A DNA stretch of 64,000 nucleotides from Cryobacterium algoritolerans (lineage in GTDB: Bacteria; Actinomycetota; Actinomycetes; Actinomycetales; Microbacteriaceae): the NCBI RefSeq assembly GCF_004402785.1, contig NZ_SOFP01000013.1, positions 1-64,000 on the forward strand. The letters run 5' to 3'. The notes beneath the pieces are model-generated. The model was not told the DNA's origin and ran no database searches. It saw only the letters and a list, made by a program, of their open reading frames with translations. The translations under genes were made by a program, and so were the position numbers. Shown here one piece after another: positions 1,237 through 2,467 of the stretch (positions within the stretch are counted from its first letter, which is position 1; the number at the start of each line of letters is the position of its first letter).

Positions 1237-1333
1237 GTGGCTAACTCAGGAGATCCCGCTCAGCGGCGTCAACCTGGCGCGAACCAGTGCGACGGGGGTG
1301 GGTCCTGAGCCGCCGTTCTCCTGAGTTAGCCAC
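1237..1333. repeat. 97-bp palindrome-ended element, copy 1
   Basis: The element begins GTGGCTAACTCAGGAGA (1237-1253) and ends with its exact reverse complement TCTCCTGAGTTAGCCAC (1317-1333), a 17-bp perfect terminal inverted repeat. A second 97-bp copy with the same right end lies at 2371-2467. The two copies bracket the single gene at 1440-2330. It is too short to encode a transposase, so it is either a MITE-like or REP-like element, or the boundary of a mobile cassette. Confidence 0.8.
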
Positions 1334-1439
1334 CGCGCTGCGCTCGATTGCTGTTGTGCACATTTCCCGCGGATCTGTATTGTCCACAGTTTGCGTTCCC
1401 GCAGGGTGGCGGCTCGCTGGGTCTACGACACTTCCCGCC

Positions 1440-2330
1440 ATGACCTGGACCGACTACTTCCGTGAGAACGACGTGCGTATCGCCGAGACGAAGGCGCTGG
1501 TGGCAGCCGGGGCAAATTGGCGCGCTCTGCGCGCTGCCACGGGGAGCGGTTCGCTGGTCCGAGCGAGGCGGGGGCACTATGCCTTGCCAGACATTGACCG
1601 GCACATCCTCGCAGCCGTGCGCCTGGGAGGACGGCTCGCGTGTGTCTCCGCTGCCGCTCAGTGCGGGGCCTTCGTGCTCGACAACACTTTCACCCACATC
1701 GTTCTTGTCCCGAACGCGTCGAGGCTGCGTGCGCCGCACAACCGATTCCAGTTGCTCAACGACCAGAACCGCGACGGTGCGCAACTGCATTGGGGCAAGT
1801 TGATCGAGCCGGATTCCGGCACTGAGTACAGCATCGGTCTGGCCGATGCGTTGGTGCAGATCGTCCGGTGCCAGGAACCTCGATTCGCGCTCGCGTCCAT
1901 TGACAACGCGTTGCACCAACGGCTCATCAAACCGGAGGCCGTTCCAGCGATCTTCGCGGCGTTGCCCGCAAGCATCCAATACCTGCGTCCGCTCATTGAC
2001 CGGCGCAGTGAGTCAGGACAGGAGACTGTGCTTCGGTTCATCGTGCAGAAGGCCGGATACGACGTCGAGATCCAGGTGACGGTTGACGGTGTCGGCCGCG
2101 TCGATATGGTCGTGGAGGGATGCCTCGTCGTCGAGGCGGACAGCCGACGATTCCACGAGGGGTGGGAGGCGCAGGCGCGCGACCGTACACGAGATTGCGA
2201 CCTGGCGATGAGGGGTTACCTGAGTCTCCGCGTCCTCTACCGCGACATCATGTACCGTCCGGACCGTGTCGTGGCGGCCATTGGCGGCCTACTTGCGGCA
2301 AGTAGCCGGTATCGTACGGTCATCCTCTGA
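1440..2330 (+). CDS. AbiEi/DUF559-like protein with Vsr-type nuclease fold
   Basis: The protein has 296 residues from ATG 1440; upstream in-frame codons run into the palindromic element and look non-coding. The N-terminal part (about residues 15-55) resembles the winged-helix AbiEi antitoxin-type domain found in many actinobacterial proteins, containing VRARRGHYALPD. The C-terminal part resembles DUF559/Vsr-like PD-(D/E)xK nucleases. It has a conserved Glu in ESGQETVLRFIV, then Asp in RVDMVVEGCLVVEAD with the E-x-D pair, then SRRFHEGWEAQARDRTRD. No toxin partner gene is adjacent. Such proteins are usually annotated as AbiEi-family or DUF559; their real function is unknown. The gene sits alone between two 97-bp palindrome-ended repeats and runs opposite to the following operon, so transfer as a cassette is possible. 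Confidence 0.75.
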   Translation: MTWTDYFRENDVRIAETKALVAAGANWRALRAATGSGSLVRARRGHYALPDIDRHILAAVRLGGRLACVSAAAQCGAFVLDNTFTHIVLVPNASRLRAPHNRFQLLNDQNRDGAQLHWGKLIEPDSGTEYSIGLADALVQIVRCQEPRFALASIDNALHQRLIKPEAVPAIFAALPASIQYLRPLIDRRSESGQETVLRFIVQKAGYDVEIQVTVDGVGRVDMVVEGCLVVEADSRRFHEGWEAQARDRTRDCDLAMRGYLSLRVLYRDIMYRPDRVVAAIGGLLAASSRYRTVIL

Positions 2331-2370
2331 CCGGTCACCGGCCAGAGGGGCCGAGGTCGGGCTCCGGGAG

Positions 2371-2467
2371 CGGGGTAACTCAGGAGATCCAGCCCAAGGC
2401 GACTTTCGGCGTCCAGCAGTTCTGCGGTTCGCCCGAGTGGGGGGCTCGCGTCTCCTGAGTTAGCCAC
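2371..2467. repeat. 97-bp palindrome-ended element, copy 2
   Basis: The right end TCTCCTGAGTTAGCCAC (2451-2467) matches copy 1 exactly. The left end keeps TAACTCAGGAGATCC (2376-2390) but has lost the outer GTGGC. The length is the same as copy 1 (97 bp) while the interior has diverged. The right tip supplies the stop codon TAA (2460-2462, minus strand) of the HAD hydrolase gene, so the element abuts or has trimmed that gene. Confidence 0.78.

Follow-up and report, generated by a model that had tools for sequence, protein, structure and literature searches.

Matching palindrome-ended elements around a Vsr-like nuclease gene family suggest an enzyme–repeat partnership in Actinomycetota

The stretch of Cryobacterium algoritolerans DNA analyzed here (64,000 nucleotides, hereafter the window) carries near its start a single nuclease-like gene between two palindrome-ended elements. 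This arrangement raises the question of whether the gene and the elements belong together and, if they do, what the protein may do to the DNA on its two sides. An earlier note on the window took the gene for an AbiEi/DUF559-type gene and read the layout as a small, possibly defensive cassette moved by recombination between its end elements. The comparisons described below suggest another answer: genes of this nuclease-like family often lie between matching palindrome-ended elements with further copies dispersed in the genome, which points to an unrecognized nuclease–repeat partnership. The features of the locus are as follows.

1237..1333, no strand: element 1, a 97-bp three-part palindromic element
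1276..1293 (approximate), no strand: central palindromic motif of element 1, putatively placed in this copy from the family consensus CCGCG-N6-CGCGG
1440..2330, plus strand: family gene (ATG 1440, stop 2330), 296 aa
2371..2467, no strand: element 2, 97 bp
2460..2462, minus strand: HAD gene stop codon (TAA), within the right end of element 2

The window sequence bears out the structural part of the earlier note: the two 97-bp elements are real and related, with a common 17-base right end, one nuclease-like gene lies between them, and the right element carries the stop codon of the HAD gene. The stop codon of an FGGY kinase gene is followed by element 1, the family gene, element 2, and the convergent HAD hydrolase gene. 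The kinase gene, the first of the window, is glycerol kinase-like (FGGY kinase by Pfam), and we presume it to be glpK and use that name. Element 1 spans positions -203 to -107 relative to the ATG of the family gene and has perfect inverted ends (17/17; GTGGCTAACTCAGGAGA at 1237-1253 and TCTCCTGAGTTAGCCAC at 1317-1333). The right end of element 2 is identical to that of element 1 (17/17), and its left end matches at 14 of 17 positions (3 differences). Positions 1034-1151, immediately downstream of the glpK stop codon, hold a perfect tandem array of a 9-bp repeat (CACCACCTG, ~13 copies), and a terminator-like inverted repeat follows at 1156-1193.

Searching the genome and its relatives for the shared end, as the note had proposed, revealed elements elsewhere too. 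The exact end-to-end pattern occurs three times in the window's genome, together with at least two more imperfect copies, and is present in 14 of the 57 genomes of the genus; since the reversed control pattern gave 0 matches in the same searches, the elements are beyond chance.

Framing of the gene and its chromosomal place

The genes most similar to that of the window (clade A, 58-81% identity) are all framed: 15 of 15, the window included, are flanked on both sides by one to three elements, as compared with one match in the reversed sequence of 20 loci. The ends in G055, G022, and G046 match those of the window poorly (5 to 9 mismatches of 34), yet each of these genomes has its own consistent variants. 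The upstream element starts at -202 to -205 in nine of the 15 genes, among them that of the window. A second clade (clade B, 52-60% identity) has elements of like build on both sides of its genes in six of the six cases examined, and their ends are GCATAACTCCTGCAA(A)TT and its reverse complement; no clade-A-type elements were found at these six genes. The elements thus change with the protein clade. In locus L143, a SpoU gene also lies between two elements.

Clades A and B share one chromosomal spot. In 18 of the 21 Cryobacterium-group loci compared, the gene sits between glpK and the HAD-trpS side (in L124, one of the 18, the glpK side is off the contig), and in the other three (L125, L126, and L131) it is located on the opposite side of the glp genes. 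A mobile gene cassette would be expected at varied locations, so the mobile reading fails because the gene keeps its spot, an outcome close to the conserved placement that the earlier note had itself set against its proposal. An AbiEi/DUF559 defence cassette moved between two end elements is therefore already largely refuted by synteny, and we consider it very improbable indeed. In its favor, the PADLOC AbiEi model PDLC02225 matches 10 of 14 diverse family members, weakly (window protein, E 0.001), the flanking copies could recombine, and in G002 a single B element occupies the glpK spot that carries the gene in other genomes. Besides the fixed place, no toxin-like gene adjoins the family gene, and a family gene is found in just 5 of 100 loci with dispersed elements.

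The glpK spot was further inspected in 24 genomes without a clade-A or clade-B gene there, 23 of which gave a match. By eye, four of them keep an element or gene remnant: the single B element of G002, a collapsed remnant in G010 and G047, and a gene remnant in G026, the last being a partial family-gene remnant or pseudogene beside an almost intact upstream B element (L409). No A or B element was seen by eye at this spot in the remaining genomes, several of which have other palindromes. A related observation comes from L406 and L407 (G002 and G051), where ATTCGACGG-family elements follow a glpK paralog, as the B element follows the first glpK in G002.

The single element and the remnants at the glpK spot could also reflect a selfish homing gene. 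The lone element would be the target, cutting at its centre would copy the gene and a second element into allelic sites, and the dispersed copies would be by-catch. The B element of G002, the collapsed remnants, and the pseudogene fit this explanation, as do four of the 12 flanking pairs compared, whose interiors are 0.85-0.96 identical in direct orientation. Among the other eight pairs, however, the interiors of L284, L269, L273, and L278 tend to agree better when inverted, and those of L263 and L285 show no preference. No recent gain of the gene was found, and loss of the gene through recombination of its two flanking copies would leave the same traces. Even with the protein matches given below, we judge a homing gene improbable.

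Matching flanks across the family and a three-part element

Framing extends beyond the two clades. Many of the distant paralogs in the genus (27-35% identity) also lie between elements, whose ends are different again, and we scored this pattern in 102 stand-alone family genes of Microbacteriaceae with ~600 bp on each side (104 HMM matches, from which the partial L190 and L191 had been removed). The upstream and downstream inverted repeats were compared over their 11-base arms, the score being the number of letters that agree (at most 22), with a cut-off of at least 19, and the null pairs the upstream side of one gene with the downstream side of an unrelated one. The cut-off was reached by 54 of the 102 genes, versus 0.93% of 2040 null pairs, and by none of 103 control genes from the same kind of loci. 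The positives comprise 20 of 21 clade A/B genes, 9 of 20 genus paralogs, and 25 of 61 genes from other Microbacteriaceae genomes. Across Actinomycetota, 9 of 29 loci (one each from 29 of 54 matching genomes, with L276 kept despite only 123 bases upstream) passed, versus 4 of 812 null pairs (0.5%). With a laxer score (K=9, equal spans) that was added post hoc, after the K=11 results had been seen, the counts were 62/102 versus 0.2% of 1224 null pairs and 14/29 versus 0.74% of 812. At the original cut-off, 48/102 and 20/29 genes stay under the score; known misses are L127 in the K=11 test and L131 in the K=9 test, and some of the other genes may truly be without a pair.

Within one gene, the upstream and downstream copies are mostly of equal span, and the ends differ between genes. 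End similarity tracks protein identity, with rho 0.41 over 1431 non-independent pairs and 0.24 when clades A and B are left out; the mean best 11-mer end match in these non-independent pairs is 7.4 below 30% protein identity, 10.4 at 60-75%, and 11.0 above 75%. The family is widespread: matches to the nuclease profile were found in 112 of 120 sampled Microbacteriaceae genomes (35 over the Pfam cut-off, long fusion proteins included), and the full-length family profile was matched in 54 of 198 sampled Actinomycetota genomes.

The clade-A elements were also analyzed for their build. Scanning 84,980 species genomes for the end pairs returned 86 stretches, and among the 80 listed, 77 are titled Microbacteriaceae, mostly Cryobacterium, and three are unrelated metagenome bins. 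These three matches outside Actinobacteria (L053, L097, and L112) come from bins labelled Spartobacteria, archaeon, and Gammaproteobacteria. When total lengths of 70-114 were tested for end pairs with up to 9 mismatches in 1.26 Mb of loci, which had been gathered with patterns permitting totals of ~87-114 and in which overlapping loci count more than once, solely lengths of 85-87, 95-98, and 106-109 were found, and the reversed motif gave none in the same test. After merging, 141 distinct elements remain. The central palindrome CCGCG-N6-CGCGG, defined from the 96-bp class, stands at the middle in 51 of 64 elements of that class; in the 97-bp class, 30 of 39 elements have it within half a base of the middle, and in 3/3 short and 22/28 long elements it lies 5 to 6.5 bp off the middle. 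In the short and long classes one arm therefore loses or gains about one helical turn, and the ends and the centre stay phased.

The outer 17-bp ends are complementary to each other, and the arms between ends and centre pair no better than shuffled sequence (0.403 vs 0.397 in the 96-bp class, 0.397 vs 0.389 in the 97-bp class), a result that does not support a long-hairpin reading of the element. By eye, the interiors of different copies are largely unrelated, and the arm sequence seems unimportant. The clade-A element is thus built of three parts: ends of ~17 bp, variable unpaired arms, and a central palindrome in fixed helical phase. Judged by sequence, a protein site in double-stranded DNA with three putative contact regions would be expected to have such a build. 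An integron-like reading, based on what we took to be a resemblance of the element ends to the core sites of integron attC, was considered and then dropped.

Dispersed copies and their turnover between species

Ends taken from the flanks of a family gene find further copies in the same genome. Another family gene of the window's genome (C57:88633-89400) has the flanking ends ATTCGACGG/CCGTCGAAT, and this pair occurs in 14 copies there, two of them the flanks and 12 elsewhere; 13 of the 14 span exactly 75, and the control gave 0. In G132, from another Microbacteriaceae genus, the ends from the flanks of one gene retrieved seven copies (two flanks and five more), six of which span 95, with 0 for the reversed pattern. 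G248 was searched with the G132 motif alone, a result that says nothing on its own elements.

On average, copy numbers follow the resident gene. With genomes classed as nucA or nucB by identity (G055, which also has a 52% gene, being placed in nucA), the mean number of exact motif-B copies is 10.4 in nucB genomes (with copies in 20 of 21), 1.9 in nucA genomes, and 2.1 in genomes with neither (rank test p ~3e-7, phylogenetically uncorrected), and exact motif-A copies average 2.0, 0.33 in nucB, and 0 with neither. Motif-B copies occur without the cognate gene in G014 (13), G018 (6), and G005 (7), and no exact motif-B copies were found in G054, a clade-B genome. The earlier note had named elements scattered singly, with no link to cargo, as a sign against its proposal: the first half holds, as the dispersed elements mostly lie apart from a family gene, but the second does not, given their strong link to the family.

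Dispersed A elements are not clearly concentrated at particular gene arrangements. The 101 such elements fall into tandem gaps (49), convergent gaps (23), divergent gaps (8), called ORFs (17), and the edges of loci (4), and the 17 may reflect spurious ORFs since the genes were placed by a home-made HMM and simple ORF calls. Background gaps number 114 tandem, 48 convergent, and 36 divergent, so that no clear placement bias is evident beyond fewer divergent gaps.

This distribution bears on the strongest rival explanation, that the elements are regulatory or architectural sites. The protein would be a DNA-binding regulator with a secondary nuclease, the framing copies would serve as autoregulation operators, the dispersed ones as a regulon or chromosome-organizing sites, and nothing would move by itself. 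An AbiEi-like winged helix in the protein and the constant start of the upstream copy in clade A are in line with it, and AbiEi proteins autoregulate via promoter inverted repeats according to the part of the source available (PMC7319586). So is the conservation of ends, centre, and phasing while the arms drift, including elements kept at fixed length between the species G008 and G009 (by eye). Set against these points are the copies downstream of the gene, the absence of a promoter preference in the gap counts above, the replacement of different element families by each other at one spot (see below), and the nuclease-domain residues that are invariant in 14 members. On balance we think a purely regulatory or structural role unlikely, though it deserves serious weight.

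Turnover is most visible upstream of the SpoU methylase gene, a spot compared by eye in 30 relatives. It holds an A element in the window's genome and a B element in the four relatives whose SpoU proteins are most similar; in other relatives both elements or decayed ones occur, and G031, G041, G003, and G044 have other palindromes. Further ~60-bp palindromes were observed upstream of this gene in L308, L311, L317, and L318; those of L311, L317, and L318 have ends like GCGAGCTGTGAG..CTCACAGCTCGC, which recall the ends beside the family gene in L173. At the same spot (L303, L302, L304, and L305), G007 holds a B element, and its close relatives G002, G015, and G051 are without one. The only fairly clean filled/empty pair reads GGTTTG-GC[ATAACTCC...GGAGTTAT]GC-CCAC versus GGTTTC-GC-CCAC, from which GC is either part of the element or a duplication of two bases; a 2-bp GC duplication inside the conserved ends is possible from these sequences. 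Eight B sites of G002 were compared with G007, G015, and G051, where they appear filled, missing, decayed, or replaced, some sites being unreadable in some genomes. In two of the loci pairs L324/L381, L327/L372, and L322/L368, a central module of 10-12 bp (around TGCGGTGACCCG) is in G007 and not in G002, and at the third the reverse holds. As the arms are otherwise alignable, centres change in place.

Filled and empty sites would also be produced by simple non-autonomous transposition, with the protein acting as the transposase of MITE-like elements. The states of the SpoU spot in G007 and its three relatives and the several element families per genome agree with such a process. The target-site duplications that the earlier note had suggested looking for did not appear, however: outside the 17-bp ends of 140 A elements, no excess was found for k = 2-9 except a single case at k = 4-5. 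The interiors of copies are unrelated, the family gene keeps its place, and the best folds are Vsr-like nucleases, with Tn7 TnsA lower (Z 5.8). For 13 copies of another family in one genome, the interior identity is 0.385, as compared with 0.302 for shuffled sequence and 0.877 for the ends, and this sharing of ends with little shared interior is unlike recent copy-and-paste. Any dispersal model must explain the divergent interiors, whether through great age plus selection acting on the ends or through conversion of both ends and centres. We therefore rate simple transposition as quite improbable. A RAYT enzyme as hidden driver of the elements was likewise rejected, as no Y1/HUH (RAYT) transposase (PF01797) was found in the window's genome; 5 of 14 control genomes match this profile.

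The protein, a proposed mechanism, and known systems

The family gene product combines an N-terminal AbiEi-like winged helix (~1-56) with a C-terminal Vsr/EDxHD-type nuclease domain (~190-290). The window protein matches PF18741 (MTES_1575 REase) with E 8e-9 and 35.9 bits, under the cut-off of 38.2, DUF559 with 0.0011, and AbiEi_4 weakly with 0.067; in 14 diverse members, DUF559 is matched by 14 and AbiEi_4 by four, and no NCBIfam family was found for the two members tried. Residues E182, R186, Q199, D209, E219, H226, and D235 are invariant in the 14 members (numbered by the first row of alignment A1; the window protein is +13), and five of them (E182, D209, E219, H226, and D235) are candidate EDxHD residues. 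Among solved structures, the family profile matches two, 3hrl (E 3.9e-9) and the catalytic domain of the homing endonuclease I-Bth0305I (3r3p, E 1.5e-6). This match in sequence and fold, together with the homing-endonuclease model PDLC03678 that matches 8 of 14 members, favors the homing explanation considered above.

The AlphaFold (AF2) model of the protein has a mean pLDDT of 65, with residues 62-133 unreliable, and a Foldseek search with it gave no match below E 0.001, 3r3p ranking first at E 0.042. Residues 190-290 superpose on 3hrl with Z 10.5 (1.8 A, 90 residues), on 3r3p with Z 9.8 (96 residues), and on Vsr 1cw0 with Z 8.3 (rmsd 7.0). For residues 1-56, the AbiEi antitoxin winged helix gives Z 5.1 (52 residues), a score that other winged helices equal, so that the AbiEi label rests on the profile matches. 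The neighbors of the family gene are FGGY kinase, HAD hydrolase, tRNA-synt_1b, and Exo_endo_phos genes, with none toxin-like among them. The defence role raised by the earlier note finds no backing here, the best catalytic-fold matches being an endonuclease-like protein, a homing endonuclease, and Vsr.

Taken with the framing and the dispersed copies, these features incline us to regard the gene and its elements as one two-part system, one of many in Actinomycetota, in a partnership like that of REP and RAYT with an unrelated, homing-endonuclease-like enzyme. Each protein would be paired with its own family of palindromic sites, with at least one on each side of the gene and, in the four families examined, more elsewhere. 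EDxHD enzymes such as I-Bth0305I dimerise on a target of nearly 60 bp, as described in the available part of a review (PMC3943268), an analogy that suggests, but does not show, a dimer spanning the element from its ends to its centre. Such a dimer may grip the two ends by its winged helices and bring the nuclease domains to the centre, where cutting or nicking would trigger repair that copies or converts elements. Copies would thereby spread, ends would stay uniform, and centres would change. Through the copy in front of its gene, the protein may in addition regulate its own expression. Whether the actinobacterial winged-helix and Vsr-like nuclease family as a whole is a class of enzyme plus repeat, which recognizes its own three-part site, is framed by it, and spreads or maintains the copies by centre cutting and repair, is a proposal on which we are evenly divided.

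The association gives a widespread family of proteins a specific partner in the DNA, and the function of the family becomes directly testable because each framed gene comes with its predicted binding and cutting site. It also explains several of the short palindromic repeat families that these genomes contain and provides nucleases, as a natural collection, whose target sites are long and can be read from sequence. Searches of the open-licence literature retrieved papers on REP/RAYT, AbiEi, Vsr-like proteins, and EDxHD enzymes, and no link between this nuclease family and repeats was found in the titles and abstract starts of the retrieved papers.

Several known systems resemble parts of the one proposed here. 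Target-site duplications outside the ends and shared interiors, features of MITEs and other IS-mobilised elements, were not found for the present elements. The AbiEi antitoxin of type IV toxin-antitoxin systems shares the N-terminal winged helix, by weak profile matches, and has inverted repeats at its own promoter in the source as far as available (PMC7319586). The family protein differs in that its C-terminal half is a nuclease, no AbiEii-like nucleotidyltransferase toxin is its neighbor, and the repeats lie on both sides of the gene and genome-wide. REase_MTES_1575 (PF18741) corresponds to the nuclease domain by profile; the available part of its description places it in a giant HEPN/helicase fusion protein and mentions no repeats (PMC3710099). 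The Vsr mismatch endonuclease and DUF559 Vsr-like proteins such as Caulobacter VsrA have the nuclease fold, whereas the family protein has an extra winged helix and a middle region; VsrA is linked functionally to a methyltransferase, and not to repeats, in the available part of its report (PMC12907096). The EDxHD homing endonuclease I-Bth0305I has the fold and sequence of its catalytic domain in common with the family protein, and its very long target, bound by a dimer in the same partial review (PMC3943268), recalls the clade-A elements. Unlike it, the family gene is chromosomal, encodes an AbiEi-like winged helix, and has its own dispersed palindromic sites.

The closest likeness in lifestyle is to the REPtrons formed by REP/REPIN sequences and RAYT (TnpA_REP). 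As described in the available parts of two reports (PMC3116915, PMC8266576), a single-copy gene lies beside its own palindromic repeats with a tree largely congruent with that of the species, several independent families occur per genome, the repeats are dispersed between genes, and enzyme and repeat co-evolve. Here too, the gene is flanked by its own repeats, which are dispersed and co-evolve with it. The enzyme differs, being of the Vsr/EDxHD nuclease type and not a Y1/HUH transposase, and so does the site: REP is described, in the available part of one of these reports, as folded single-strand DNA (PMC8266576), in contrast to the phased, three-part clade-A site with its variable unpaired arms. 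If the proposed partnership is true, it would represent a second solution, unrelated to REP/RAYT, for the same genome-resident lifestyle.
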